Of a stretch of 30,143 nucleotides of DNA, positions 14,379-19,228 are shown one piece after another (the stretch's first letter is position 1; each line of letters opens with the position of its first letter). Both the position numbers and the translations under genes were made by a program. The notes under the pieces were generated by a model. That model worked only from the letters and a program-made list of their open reading frames with translations, made no database searches and was not told where the DNA came from. The stretch is taken from IMG/VR virus record IMGVR_UViG_3300025086_000147, positions 1 to 30,143 of that record; one strand, 5' to 3'. The stretch comes from a virus.

Positions 14379-14613
14379 ACTTCTTATCTATGTGTTTTTT
14401 TAATCCCATCCTTGAGAGTTTACGATTTGTACTTGCTTCTAACCAGTCTACTGCAACAGCTAAACTGATCTCATCATTCTTAACCATTTGTGATACAACA
14501 TCTAATGCATGTATCTGTTCAGTAATAGGTTTAAGATAACCATCTACTTCTATATCAACTTCATATCCAAAAGGTATGGTTGATGTTTTTCTTTTTATAT
14601 ATCCTTCTTTCAT
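14314..14613 (-). CDS. Small HTH-like conserved phage protein (99 aa)
   Basis: Between iscU and terL, with its ATG overlapping the iscU stop and its last 64 bp overlapping terL. The core has IPFGYEVD, then YLKPITEQIHALD, then a predicted helix-turn-helix (SLAVAVDWLEASTNRKLSRMGLKKHI) similar in layout to the DNA-binding tail of resolvases and to small proteins beside terminases. It may assist packaging-site recognition or act as a regulator. It has no catalytic serine domain, so it is not itself a recombinase. Confidence 0.6.
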   Translation of the reverse strand: MKEGYIKRKTSTIPFGYEVDIEVDGYLKPITEQIHALDVVSQMVKNDEISLAVAVDWLEASTNRKLSRMGLKKHIDKKYDRQRQEESDRNKFNSILDRF

Positions 14614-15026
14614 AACTGATTGTGCTTTCTATAAGCTGTCTTTGTTTCCCAATCTTCTATTGCTTTTGCAATACTATCTTCTGCAAGAACAGAACAATGT
14701 AACTTTATTGGTGGTAACTCTAATGCTTCTGCAATATCTTTATCTTTAATAAGCTTTGCTTCTTGTATTGTTTTACCCTTAAGCATATCTACAAACAATG
14801 TAGAGGATGCGATAGCACTACCACAACCATAGGTTTTAAACTTAACATCTTCTATTAAGTCCCCATCTAGTTTAAGTTGTAGTCTCATTACATCACCACA
14901 AGCCGGTGCACCTGTCATACCTGTAGCTACGTTAGGGTCTGTAGAATCAAACCTACCTACTGCATGTTTCTCAGGTTCGTTGAGTACACTATCAAACCTG
15001 TCAAGTACTTGTTGTGAATATGCCAT
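14610..15026 (-). CDS. iscU: IscU-type Fe-S cluster scaffold protein
   Basis: A 138-aa protein that reads as full-length IscU. All cluster-assembly residues are present: Cys43 and Asp45 (GAPACGDVM), Cys68 (YGCGSAIAS), His110 and Cys111 (LHCSVLAED), matching E. coli Cys37/Asp39/Cys63/His105/Cys106. The HscA-recognition loop is conserved as LPPIK (104-108). In bacteria IscU accepts sulfur from IscS, builds [2Fe-2S] and passes it on via HscA/HscB. Compared with E. coli, about six residues are inserted near 15-20, replacing the ENPRN region, and one residue is missing before Cys68. The start overlaps the stop of the 49-aa gene (TAATG), so it is embedded in the leftward packaging operon. No iscS, iscA or hscA is in the window, so it would use the host machinery. 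Confidence 0.95.
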   Translation of the reverse strand: MAYSQQVLDRFDSVLNEPEKHAVGRFDSTDPNVATGMTGAPACGDVMRLQLKLDGDLIEDVKFKTYGCGSAIASSTLFVDMLKGKTIQEAKLIKDKDIAEALELPPIKLHCSVLAEDSIAKAIEDWETKTAYRKHNQL

Positions 15027-15865: not shown

Positions 15866-16050
15866 TACTTATAACCTCCACCTTTAGCTTTGTATTCTTT
15901 AGCAAGCATCTGAGCCTTCCTAGCACTCCATTGTCCGGGTCTACCACCTTTACCCCCTGCTTTAATCTTATTGAAAAGATTCTTTCTCATCGTAGGTTTG
16001 GTATAGTTACCTGCTTTATTTACTGTCGATTTCTTTTTCTTTGCTGCCAT
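15865..16050 (-). CDS. Small Lys/Gly-rich protein (61 aa)
   Basis: A 61-aa basic protein with MAAKKKKSTVNKAGNYTKPT at the N-terminus and a conserved-looking AGGKGGRPGQWSARKAQMLA ending in KAKGGGYK. The central GKGGRPGQW element recurs in small marine-phage proteins that accompany DUF5872 and DUF6321 genes. Its start overlaps the TerS stop by one base, so it is the second gene of the leftward operon. Likely nucleic-acid binding by charge; not characterised. Confidence 0.72.
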   Translation of the reverse strand: MAAKKKKSTVNKAGNYTKPTMRKNLFNKIKAGGKGGRPGQWSARKAQMLAKEYKAKGGGYK

Positions 16051-16547
16051 TACTCTTCCTCTTCATCATTAGTTTCTCCAACATCATATTGTTGGAATCC
16101 AGTTTCTGTTTCATAGTCAATGTCTTCTTCTTCATATTCTATTTCCTCTGCTTCTGCATCTATAGGAGCTTTGTCTGGTAATATAAAGATACCACTAGAT
16201 GCTTGCATATTAATGTCTAACTTCTCAGACTTAGAAACTCCTACACGATCTAATAAAGACTGTGCAGCTACAAGTTTATTACTAGCCTGAGGTATTGGTT
16301 TATCTGAATCCATAATCTCTAAAAGCTTAAAAGCTGCTTTAGGGGCATTGTGTGCTAGTACATCCTTAGTTAGTTCTAATACTTCATTCTTTAAAGCCTT
16401 CAAGACTTGATAGTGTCCACCAGAGTAACCGGCTAATTCTGCTGCTATCTTAGCATTACCTTCTGTTTCTATCAGATTATCTAAGAATAGTTGTTGTTTT
16501 TCTGTAAGCTGCCTAGCTTGTTGTGTGGTTGGTATAATACTGCTCAT
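16050..16547 (-). CDS. terS: Terminase small subunit
   Basis: A 165-aa first gene of the leftward operon. Residues 15-60 (LTEKQQLFLDNLIETEGNAK, then IAAELAGYSGG) form a helix-turn-helix of the kind TerS proteins use to recognise pac or concatemer DNA. A helical middle (KAAFKLLEIMDSDKPIPQAS, then AAQSLLDRVGVSKSEK) should oligomerise, and the C-terminus is extremely acidic (EEDIDYETETG...EEEE), which could contact TerL or the basic neighbours. TerL is about 1.7 kb downstream in the same operon. A leftward terminator-like hairpin lies 24-47 bp upstream of the start codon. Confidence 0.8.
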   Translation of the reverse strand: MSSIIPTTQQARQLTEKQQLFLDNLIETEGNAKIAAELAGYSGGHYQVLKALKNEVLELTKDVLAHNAPKAAFKLLEIMDSDKPIPQASNKLVAAQSLLDRVGVSKSEKLDINMQASSGIFILPDKAPIDAEAEEIEYEEEDIDYETETGFQQYDVGETNDEEEE

Positions 16548-16570
16548 GTAAACCAGTATAGGGTTATATT

Positions 16571-16594
16571 AAAAAAAGTCAAGAAGGACTTGAC
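16571..16594 (-). terminator. Leftward intrinsic terminator immediately upstream of terS
   Basis: On the leftward strand GTCAAG-TCCTT-CTTGAC (six perfect base pairs, 5-nt loop) is followed by seven T. It ends only 24 bp before the terS start, so leftward RNA begun further right would be stopped here unless antiterminated. Its outer bases overlap the -35 box of the rightward promoter, so the two signals are physically linked. Confidence 0.65.
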
Positions 16595-16618
16595 AAAAAG
16601 CTCTCTGGACTGTAGAAT
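16590..16618 (+). promoter_or_regulatory. Near-consensus sigma70 promoter, rightward
   Basis: TTGACA (16590-16595), a 17-base spacer and TAGAAT (16613-16618): 11 of 12 consensus bases at ideal spacing. Initiation would be near 16625, pointing into the rightward genes. This implies the phage starts infection with host RNA polymerase. It is the strongest promoter I see in the window. Confidence 0.8.
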
Positions 16619-16754
16619 GAGGCTTGTCCGGTAGGCAGGTTAGTACCTATAGGATACACCCTCCACTAATAGTCTATTAAGCCCGACCTAACTGGTTGAC
16701 ACCCTAAACCCCATAAAACATTTAACCATGCCATAGATATATACGGAGGGTGGT

Positions 16755-16862
16755 ATGGTCTCCTGCGTACCCCTAAAGAACCTGACGTATGAGCAGGCAC
16801 TAGACCTACTATTGATCTTTTATCACAAACTAGCAAGACTAAATAAACTTCAAGACTACTGA
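16755..16862 (+). CDS. Probable 35-aa leader-region protein
   Basis: The ORF starts MVSCVPLKNLTYEQALDLLL and ends in a basic amphipathic helix (FYHKLARLNKLQDY). A strong GGAGGG ribosome site lies upstream of ATG, and the ORF is the first behind the 16590 promoter, so it could be made very early, like small host-takeover peptides of T7-like phages. The start-codon region (16751-16766) is perfectly complementary to 16 bases at 18135-18150, which may matter for control. No family recognised; being short, it could be chance. Confidence 0.5.
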   Translation: MVSCVPLKNLTYEQALDLLLIFYHKLARLNKLQDY

Positions 16863-16956
16863 GTCCTACTGGATATACTTTAGGAAACCCCTTATAGTTT
16901 TGTAAAGCTTAGAAGCTTTTAAAAGTTTATATAGTCTTCATCAGTAAGCAAACATA

Positions 16957-17045
16957 GCAAGCTCTGAGTACATTGAGTTGGCTCTCCCCTCATCTAACTA
17001 CCATATGATAAGCTTTGCAAGCTACACAGGGGTTACTGAGCTTGC
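16957..17045 (+). repeat. Nested stem-loop
   Basis: Outer arms GCAAGCTC (16957-16964) and GAGCTTGC (17038-17045) are perfectly complementary. Inside, CCCCT (16986-16990) pairs with AGGGG (17028-17032), and within that lies a small hairpin AGCTT-TGC-AAGCT (17011-17023). Three consistent nested stems suggest a real fold rather than chance. Confidence 0.55.
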
Positions 17046-17070
17046 CAGACTACTATAAGTGTAGGCTTCA

Positions 17071-17180
17071 ACTCCAAAAACTATCTAGTTTACAAAGTTT
17101 ACTAAGTTTGTAAGCATTAATATTATTATGTTTAAATTAAGAACTTCATAAACTTCAAAGGGTTAGATAGTTTTTGTAGT
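17071..17180 (+). repeat. Long inverted repeat with inner hairpin
   Basis: Arms 17071-17087 and 17164-17180 pair over 17 bases with one mismatch, containing a 13-bp uninterrupted core CAAAAACTATCTA/TAGATAGTTTTTG. Inside the left half, TTACAAA (17090-17096) pairs with TTTGTAA (17107-17113), and the next pair on RNA would be a U-G wobble, allowed only in the rightward transcript. The remaining loop is very AT-rich (17115-17140). Confidence 0.6.
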
Positions 17181-17237
17181 ATTTCATATCCATTCCATAT
17201 CCATATTATAAGTATCCATAGTTTGATATAGTCTATG

Positions 17238-17306
17238 AGTGTAAGAGCAAGCTAGATAGTCCCGATCTTATGTAATCTTCTTGTGTATCACACTAGCTTT
17301 TACACT
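17238..17306 (+). repeat. Bulged 14-bp stem-loop
   Basis: AGTGTAA (17238-17244), a 4-nt bulge GAGC, then AAGCTAG (17249-17255) pair exactly with CTAGCTT-TTACACT (17293-17306). The 37-nt loop contains TGTGTATCACA, a small palindrome-like element. The contiguous opposite strand and perfect two-part pairing make an RNA element or a protein-binding site plausible. Confidence 0.55.
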
Positions 17307-17456
17307 TAGAAGACTTGAGAAGCTTGCTATCCTTGAAGCACTAATCCCATATCCCTGTCCTGAAACTGTGTGTTTCTAAGACCTTGTAACGTCATAAGTG
17401 ATCATTAATATCTCCTTGTACTTTTAATTACATATTACATGAAAACTTTATAGCTC

Positions 17457-17514
17457 ACAAGAGTCAAGACCCTGTAACAGCTAAAGCTTAACAGGCTCTA
17501 ACCTCTGCTCTTGT
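17457..17514 (+). repeat. Two-part stem-loop upstream of the 60-aa gene
   Basis: ACAAGAG (17457-17463) pairs with CTCTTGT (17508-17514), enclosing CCTGT (17471-17475) paired with ACAGG (17491-17495). It sits 49 bp before the start codon of the 60-aa gene and has no T-run after it, so it is not a standard terminator. It may stabilise the mRNA 5' end or bind a regulator. Confidence 0.45.
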
Positions 17515-17562
17515 AATCTAAAAGATTTCCATGTCTAATGTATGTAATACAAGGAGAATATT

Positions 17563-17745
17563 ATGATACTAATAACCTTTCAAGATCAAGAAACTCATCA
17601 GTTTCAAAACAGTTTTATGGCAAAGTGCTTCATTGGATACCAATCCACTCAAGACCTCTTTGTTGTAAAAGTTAGATGTGATAAGGCATCTGATTACATT
17701 GCAATCGAAGACTACCTTAGATTGCTTAACACTAATATCCAATAA
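17563..17745 (+). CDS. Unknown early protein (60 aa)
   Basis: Starts MILITFQDQETHQFQNSF after an AAGGAG site. It has an alternating hydrophobic/polar pattern suggesting a small beta-alpha fold (FMAKCFIGYQSTQDLFVVKV, then DYIAIEDYLRLLNTN). No signal peptide, membrane segment or catalytic motif is visible. It is the first well-supported gene beyond the structured control region and is followed 17 bp later by the 91-aa gene, so the two form a short operon ended by a strong terminator. Early placement suggests host takeover or regulation, but that is inference only. Confidence 0.65.
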   Translation: MILITFQDQETHQFQNSFMAKCFIGYQSTQDLFVVKVRCDKASDYIAIEDYLRLLNTNIQ

Positions 17746-17762: not shown

Positions 17763-18038
17763 ATGGATACTACATTTGATATGAAAAAAGTGAAGCCTGA
17801 AACACTTAAAGGTCAGGCAACCTATAACCAATGTGTAGGACTTGCAAAGAAGTTCTCATATGGTTTGAAAGGAAAAGAGTGGGGAGAGTCTTACTCTAGA
17901 ATCAGAGCTTGTTTGCTTGCTGCTTCTAAAGAAGGAACTCTTTCTTTTGAAAAAGCTTCTGATCTTTTCAAGAAGAAGAAGCTTCCTAAAGTATATCAAG
18001 ATAGAATAGCTGCATATCTTGATATTCATTCCGGCTAG
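17763..18038 (+). CDS. Unknown early protein (91 aa)
   Basis: Starts MDTTFDMKKVKPETLKGQAT with a strong AAGGAG site. It is basic and mostly helical, with a Cys pair (Cys24 and one in RIRACLLAAS) and a C-terminal half (GTLSFEKASDLFKKKKLPKV) that could form a small DNA-binding helical domain. No named family recognised. It shares an mRNA with the 60-aa gene, and transcription ends right after it at the 18054-18086 hairpin. Its position between two control regions is consistent with a regulator, though nothing in the sequence proves it. Confidence 0.65.
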   Translation: MDTTFDMKKVKPETLKGQATYNQCVGLAKKFSYGLKGKEWGESYSRIRACLLAASKEGTLSFEKASDLFKKKKLPKVYQDRIAAYLDIHSG

Positions 18039-18053
18039 TTTGTAGCTTTAAAA

Positions 18054-18086
18054 GGGAGTAGGTCTTATCACCTGCTCCTTTTTTTT
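18054..18086 (+). terminator. Strong rho-independent terminator
   Basis: GGAGTAGGT (18055-18063) pairs with ACCTGCTCC (18070-18078) over nine positions including one G-U wobble, with a 6-nt loop, followed by eight T. It lies 16 bp after the 91-aa gene stop and ends the first rightward operon. Confidence 0.9.
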
Positions 18087-18105
18087 GTTCTTGGGGTATT
18101 AAGTA

Positions 18106-18130
18106 GGCTTGGCAGTAGCCAAGTCTTTTT
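18106..18130 (+). terminator. Second terminator in tandem
   Basis: GGCTTGGC-AGTA-GCCAAGTC forms an 8-bp stem (one G-U) with a 4-nt loop, followed by TTTTT. It comes about 20 bp after the first terminator. Double terminators usually insulate adjacent units tightly; here they shield the origin-like region. Confidence 0.75.
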
Positions 18131-18150: not shown

Positions 18151-18192
18151 TATTAAATATAAATCTAAAGTACTTCGTTATCGGATGTTAAA

Positions 18193-18385
18193 ATAGGCGG
18201 CGGTGGGTGGAGGGCATATTGTAAATAAATTGTATATAACTTGTATATATCCTGTATATAACTTGTATATATCCTGTGGATAACTTTAGTATTATATTAA
18301 GTAGGGGGCAAGCGGTGGAGGGAGTTAAAACATGTACCTTTGCCTACTGTACCTTACTAAACTATGTACCTATATCTGTACCTTT
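18193..18385. other. Candidate replication origin: iterons, DnaA box, TGTACCT repeats
   Basis: Two exact 22-bp units (TGTATATAAC plus TTGTATATATCC, 18231-18274) are followed by a third partial unit whose variant TGTGGATAA (18275-18283) is a perfect DnaA box on the opposite strand (TTATCCACA). Similar GC-rich purine elements flank the array: GCGGTGGGTGGAGGG near 18199 and GCGGTGGAGGG near 18311. Four direct copies of TGTACCT follow at 18333, 18348, 18365 and 18377. AT-rich iterons next to a DnaA box are classic for replication origins. T7-type phages normally prime from transcription and lack DnaA boxes, so this would be unusual. Function is not proven. Confidence 0.55.
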
Positions 18386-18420: not shown

Positions 18421-18525
18421 GATATAATAGACTTGACAAGATCATGCCGGTTGGGATAAACTTTAAAGGGTCAGGGCAACGACCCAGACGTTTGTTTAAA
18501 ATATAATAACCTGAGGAGGTTTAAT
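18421..18525 (+). promoter_or_regulatory. Promoter/leader cassette 1
   Basis: TTGACA (18433-18438) and TAAACT (18457-18462) are 18 bases apart. They are followed by a hairpin GGGTC-AGGGCAAC-GACCC (18468-18485) and a ribosome-site block ATAATAACCTGAGGAGG before the 99-aa gene. An exact TATAAT (18423-18428) just upstream could also act as -10, but no good -35 precedes it. The whole layout recurs at 19113-19228. Confidence 0.6.
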
Positions 18526-19112: not shown

Positions 19113-19228
19113 GATATAATAGACTTGACAAGGATTGTCGGGTCGGGTTATACTTTTAGGGCTTCGGCAACGGAGGTATCTCTTAGATACTTTTTTAATA
19201 ATAATAATACCTGAGGAGGTAACAAGAT
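19113..19228 (+). promoter_or_regulatory. Promoter/leader cassette 2
   Basis: The 21-base element AGATATAATAGACTTGACAAG (split here as AGATATAATAG + ACTTGACAAG) also occurs in cassette 1. TTGACA (19125-19130) and TATACT (19149-19154) are 18 bases apart, giving 11 of 12 consensus bases. A GGGCTTCGGCAACGG element, then the attenuator-like hairpin, then AATAATACCTGAGGAGG precede the 133-aa gene. It is stronger than cassette 1 at -10. Confidence 0.7.
19176..19196 (+). terminator. Attenuator-like terminator inside cassette 2
   Basis: GTATCT-CTT-AGATAC (six perfect pairs, 3-nt loop) is followed by six T, between the 19125 promoter and the ribosome site of the 133-aa gene. Some transcripts from this promoter should stop here, so the gene downstream may be under attenuation or translation-linked control. 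Confidence 0.7.

Follow-up and report, generated by a model that had tools for sequence, protein, structure and literature searches.

A phased array of DnaA-box-like units as a candidate host-DnaA-dependent replication origin in a marine phage related to SAR11 viruses

INTRODUCTION

At the Escherichia coli origin oriC, arrays of low-affinity sites for the initiator DnaA, separated by 2-bp gaps, are located beside or between strong DnaA boxes (PMC6727663). As that article relays from Rozgaja et al. 2011, low-affinity nine-mers lie 2 bp apart, high-affinity boxes bound them, and an AT-rich melting region is near. The basal unwinding system consists of a DnaA box, a spacer, and DnaA-trios, with at least three trios within 16 bp of the box. 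Direct repeats and DnaA boxes also occur together at the origins of iteron plasmids such as RK2 and P1, where the iterons are Rep sites of 17-22 bp. In phages, DnaA boxes are one of the listed features of the T5 injection stop signal (PMC13250531), and HTVC103P, HTVC104P, and HTVC115P have been described as a group with HMO-2011-type packaging genes, with mention of uncultured relatives whose hosts are unknown (PMC8528129).

Here, we describe a locus in the genome of a marine phage related to SAR11 viruses (IMG/VR record IMGVR_UViG_3300025086_000147; the whole analyzed stretch of 30,143 nucleotides is called the window) that resembles each of these systems in part. Like the oriC arrays, it carries weak nine-base sites 2 bp apart, a strong box at their boundary, and AT-rich DNA close by. 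It differs from oriC in being phage-borne, in consisting of a single one-directional putative array of six, in its G-rich flanks, and in that no IHF or Fis sites were identified. With the RK2 and P1 origins it shares direct repeats and DnaA boxes at what is here a candidate origin, whereas its 11-bp units are themselves DnaA-box-like and no Rep initiator gene was recognized. As in the T5 injection stop signal, DnaA boxes cluster in a noncoding phage region, but in T5-like phages the boxes are part of a long terminal repeat, while the window has no such repeat known and has a regular array with weak units. The closest named phages by DNA polymerase (51-52% identity), HTVC103P, HTVC104P, and HTVC115P, share with the window the gene order, TerS (48-49%), and a G-rich element between terS and the early genes. 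Unlike the window, HTVC103P and HTVC115P lack the DnaA-box array (in HTVC104P, 16 kb was scanned), and a DNA search of the array region against named phages gave no match.

RESULTS

Six phased units end in a perfect DnaA box

The array (Table 1) consists of nine-base DnaA-box-like sites with 2-bp gaps, all facing the same way and, by sequence, one helical turn apart. A preliminary description had read this stretch as two 22-bp iterons that merge into a third unit, a perfect DnaA box. The two identical copies exist (18231-18252 and 18253-18274), and the perfect box does follow them, yet the real unit is shorter: The repeat finder returned an 11-bp period with five overlapping copies, so that each 22-bp iteron is two 11-bp units. 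Relatives retain the 11-bp period only, and not the 22-bp copies. The box at the end of the array is the sole perfect DnaA box in the window, with both strands scanned; the four inner units are weaker, AT-rich boxes, the middle ones missing the DnaA consensus.

Table 1. Features in and around the array (window coordinates).
Feature	Position	Strand	Details
60-aa gene	17563..17745	+	no family match; diverges along with the array
91-aa gene	17763..18038	+	all-helical predicted model, good confidence; diverges along with the array
Two intrinsic terminator-like hairpins	18050-18083, 18105-18126	+	
Left G-rich direct repeat	18191..18214	+	GGCGGCGGTGGGTGGAGGG; 24 bp; repeat finder
DnaA-box-like array	18220..18285	+	six head-to-tail 11-bp units: TGTAAATAAAT TGTATATAACT TGTATATATCC TGTATATAACT TGTATATATCC TGTGGATAACT
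Perfect DnaA box	18275..18283	+	TGTGGATAA (TTATCCACA on the minus strand); last unit of the array
AT-rich spacer	18286..18301		from the last unit to the right G-rich repeat; length about equal in relatives
Right G-rich direct repeat	18299..18322	+	24 bp; on the minus strand CCCCCTACTT, 15 nt from TTATCCACA
Four TGTACCT repeats	18333..18383	+	starts 18333, 18348, 18365, 18377
Sigma-70-like promoter	18433..18462	+	TTGACA-18-TAAACT

In simulated 30-kb sequences of the same dinucleotide content, a tandem double or triple unit never appeared (0 of 300). The expected number of TGTGGATAA on its own is 0.39 per window, and a single perfect box by itself is therefore weak evidence. Chance does not account for a box that closes the array in register. 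The triple 11-bp pattern was found in none of 147 Pelagibacteraceae genomes.

The locus also displays what an oriC-type origin would carry, namely, a high-affinity box (TTATCCACA) that is invariant across eight distinct arrays, five further phased candidate DnaA sites with an exact 11-bp period and conserved cores, and an adjacent duplex of predicted lowest stability: By computed duplex stability, the least stable 50 bp of the entire window fall within the array (18222-18271). The AT-rich spacer next to the perfect box is a possible unwinding stretch; the NAN pattern of DnaA-trios is too permissive in AT-rich DNA to assign trios there.

The array lies between early genes and beside G-rich repeats

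The surroundings were much as the preliminary description had given them, with similar GC-rich elements on both sides of the array (the two G-rich direct repeats, 108 bp apart), four TGTACCT repeats, two terminators on one side, and a promoter on the other. A second, similar promoter-like site is present at 19125-19154. Each of these two promoter units is followed by a leader and CCTGAGGAGG, and an equivalent promoter pair occurs in relatives without the array, but with different -35 and -10 elements.

Packaging and head genes occupy the minus strand up to the small terminase gene terS (16050-16547). The plus strand carries early and replication genes from 17563 onward, and the noncoding stretch with the array sits between the two small genes and the next operon. 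The ~1 kb from terS to the first early gene (16548-17562) is noncoding and AT-rich, contains inverted repeats, and diverges between the array-bearing and array-less clades; a NifU-like Fe-S cluster assembly gene (14613-15026) lies inside the packaging region. GC skew, proposed earlier as a check on the origin, does turn (minimum) at 17.66 kb, but the genes switch strand at the same place, and we set the skew aside as undecisive and confounded by gene orientation.

The 91-aa protein was considered as an initiator and rejected, its predicted model having no fold match and the protein no family match. Among the early proteins scanned, none matched a Rep-type initiator, and several small proteins belonged to no family.

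T7-like replication enzymes without a candidate RNA polymerase

The phage had been called T7-type, which holds for its primase-helicase and PolA-type DNA polymerase, both T7-like, but not for its SU10-like portal, its packaging genes of the HTVC103P/HMO-2011 lineage, or its transcription: In a near-complete 54-kb relative (G1), an ORF census revealed no candidate for a T7-like RNA polymerase. We relied on this census since the controls of a family search for single-subunit RNA polymerases gave no match. Because G1 contains no ORF fit for such an enzyme, a T7-style start from phage-RNA-polymerase promoters is unlikely. The ends of G1 fall within one tail gene, and G1 showed no end repeat. G1 also encodes a CHASE2-guanylate cyclase fusion beside genes with FecR and CsgG domains (29421-33741; L195:9421-13741), an unusual set for a phage; ORFs similar to this set occur in G2, the best record of the sister clade described below.

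Unit cores are invariant in one clade, and the array is absent from its sister clade

The array is present in all 12 IMG/VR contigs that share the window's version of the 91-aa gene, and a 13th stops short of the array site. Across the eight distinct arrays, the first eight positions of units 2-5 (32 columns) showed zero changes, while variation occurs at positions 9-11; all 11 nt of unit 6, TGTGGATAACT, are invariant. Most arrays have TGTAGATAA as unit 1, one variant has TGTGGATAA, and the window has TGTAAATAA; unit 1 is a box with one mismatch in most relatives and a perfect box in one variant. The conserved stretch matches the DnaA nine-mer in extent and register, and such a pattern would be expected for nine-base binding sites joined by free 2-bp linkers.

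Close relatives with shared replication machinery did not all conserve the array. A sister clade of three (L005, L006, and L009) has no array and retains the gene order, the terminators, one G-rich block (the left repeat, as sole copy), the TGTACCT repeats (which are missing from some array-bearing relatives), and a promoter. The polymerase and primase of G2 have 88 and 92% identity with their counterparts in the window, and the 34 kb of this record contain no perfect DnaA box. The preliminary description had named lack of conservation in related phages as a refutation, and this is partly what we found: The array is conserved in one clade but absent from the sister clade, HTVC103P, and HTVC115P. 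The entire interval of ~16.7-18.5 kb differs between the clades, and because of this, the array and the two upstream genes seem to have been exchanged as one block. The products of the 60- and 91-aa genes are 78-97% identical in array-bearing and 43-47% in array-less relatives; this codivergence with the array is real, yet it is no proof of joint function.

DnaA boxes recur, and can be inverted, beside terS in wider relatives

A TerS profile search yielded 80 loci including more distant relatives, of which we counted the 47 distinct ones. In 40 of the 47, a block of 25 bases, at least 13 of them G or C on one strand, was present at most 500 nt from terS. Within the 2 kb beyond terS, noncoding DNA contained 12 strict DnaA boxes versus 0.45 expected from composition, a ~27-fold enrichment in the intergenic region between terS and the early genes of these HTVC103P-type relatives that stems from only 9 of the 47; the packaging side had 4 strict boxes in 170 kb. 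The arrangements vary, with two box runs facing each other in L480, L481, and L490 and 11-bp units around one perfect box in L477.

A composite of the G-rich element and the box recurred in relatives. The minus strand of the window reads CCCCCTACTT, 15 nt, and TTATCCACA-GG-ATATATACA, and three relatives whose TerS is 61-63% identical to that of the window (L483, L486, and L491) read CCCCCTACTT, 16 nt, and TTATCCACA-GG-ATATCAACA. Among 547 loci, the composite CCCCTACTT-N-AAGTTATCCACAGGATAT occurred only in the window's own genotype and in these three. The shared block (CCCCTACTT, 15-16 nt, TTATCCACA-GG-ATAT) has opposite orientations relative to terS in the window and in the three relatives. 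An element that works both ways round would suit an origin more than it would an operator and, to a lesser degree, more than it would a packaging site.

Further arrangements were seen near terS. In HTVC103P-type relatives (L480, L483, L491, L493, L506, L508, L513, and others), TATATATA, a C-rich block, a TCCTGC-like sequence, and CCCCTACTT occur in this order ~210-400 nt from terS; the block after TATATATA is C-rich in some phages and G-rich in others, on opposite strands, as if inverted. L513, at 1650-1800 nt upstream of terS in the orientation of the window, has an 11-bp DnaA-like array and then GTACCT repeats, the same pair of features as in the window, in inverted orientation.

Phased DnaA boxes in viral contigs and in SAR11 genomes

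Clusters of TGTGGATAA in IMG/VR displayed, among the matches listed, spacing peaks at 11-12, 21-23, and 33 bp. A complete IMG/VR scan with a reversed-box control gave 19 matches, versus at least 120 for the real box; for a permissive scan of IMG/VR with the 11-bp pattern, we used proportions among the matches listed and not totals. Phased DnaA-box clusters thus appear to be common in viral contigs, with the present array as one case that has unusually weak, AT-rich inner units. Two loci not recognized as relatives (L032 and L047) contain eight tandem 11-bp units, three TGTGTATAACC followed by five TGTATATAAC[CT], which mix consensus and weak DnaA-type boxes.

In SAR11 bacteria, we observed no paired close perfect boxes genome-wide in 10 Pelagibacteraceae genomes (which may not include the host) and, in six genomes, no clusters of perfect boxes within the ~10-15 kb that surround dnaA, where oriC might lie. 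The one SAR11 DnaA examined has a canonical-looking domain IV (RPRQIAMYLAKK...NRDHTTVIHA).

DISCUSSION

We consider it likely that host DnaA binds this array. That the array serves as such a binding site and in addition acts as, or within, the phage replication origin is the reading that we favor by a slight balance of probability, and replication start from the array, taken on its own, is the best single explanation, if an evenly balanced one and not established. Host DnaA would bind the perfect box, and a DnaA oligomer would spread from there over the weaker sites and melt the array or the adjacent AT-rich spacer, after which the phage primase-helicase, single-strand-binding protein, and PolA-type polymerase could take over. 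The origin-like character first proposed for the array is supported by core conservation, phasing, low duplex stability, and recurrence, but not by the sister clade. That clade, with the same replication genes and no array, argues against an essential origin, as do HTVC103P and HTVC115P. Also weighing against the favored reading are the middle units that miss the DnaA consensus, the small share of distinct relatives with a strict box near terS (9 of 47), and the lack of a matching arrangement in the Pelagibacteraceae genomes covered.

The main rival is a genome-end element, where bound DnaA or another protein would serve packaging, stepwise DNA entry, or end processing, and to which we assign a clearly smaller probability. 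The array could bind DnaA and also lie close to a genome end; the two readings would differ in purpose only. Use of DnaA had initially been thought unusual for such a phage, but DnaA boxes are known from T5-like terminal repeats, some T7-like phages, and others, and these cases are precedents for an end function: a T5-like phage has tandem boxes in its terminal repeat, the T7-like phages phiEap-1 and P483 have them close to their genome ends, Siara has them in its PhageTerm repeat, and Seahorse has them in its final 90 bp, and an end function of this kind has been proposed for the DnaA boxes of the T5 injection stop signal. Consistent with an end function, the array sits between terS and the early genes, and five contigs of relatives (L479, L489, L492, L505, and L544) stop right at, or a few bases from, the boundary between TATATATA and the G-C block, yet contig ends at G-rich blocks may be assembly breaks, in relatives the composite is turned around with respect to terS, and G1 ends inside a tail gene with no end repeat. 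An operator array, through which a phage protein or DnaA itself would control the early promoter at 18433, appears improbable. The conserved promoter ~150 bp downstream, the terminators upstream, and the divergence of the array together with the 60- and 91-aa genes would suit it, but array-less relatives retain the promoter and the early operon, unit 6 is exactly a DnaA box, and the 91-aa model has no DNA-binding fold match.

In E. coli, datA titrates DnaA, and clustered DnaA sites including a strong box could likewise form a sink that halts host initiation; with one perfect box only per genome copy, and with a low duplex stability and G-rich flanks that titration would not need, we regard such a sink as quite improbable. 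Least probable is a relic or neutral tandem repeat of no present function: The array is absent from the sister clade and the window repeats one 22-bp stretch exactly in tandem, but the cores stayed unchanged while the linkers vary, and arrays recurred independently in relatives. A LexA-type site, considered for TGTATATA, was rejected as the units are direct repeats without the needed inverted half-site.

Returning to a host-DnaA origin, a broader reading that we offer tentatively, and deem rather doubtful as a whole, is that small DnaA-box arrays beside a G-rich element were gained, lost, inverted, and rebuilt time and again in HTVC103P-type marine phages that have no RNA polymerase of their own, which would combine a movable host-DnaA-dependent origin with T7-like replication enzymes.

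How replication starts in abundant marine phages with T7-like enzymes and no phage RNA polymerase is apparently unstudied. The array offers a set of natural variants of weak DnaA sites, with invariant cores, free linkers, and one strong anchor, which is useful for tests of DnaA spreading. Phased clusters in viral contigs suggest that host DnaA may contact phage DNA more often than is usually assumed. A host-DnaA origin, if true, would tie phage replication to the cell-cycle state of the host, through a short and testable sequence.
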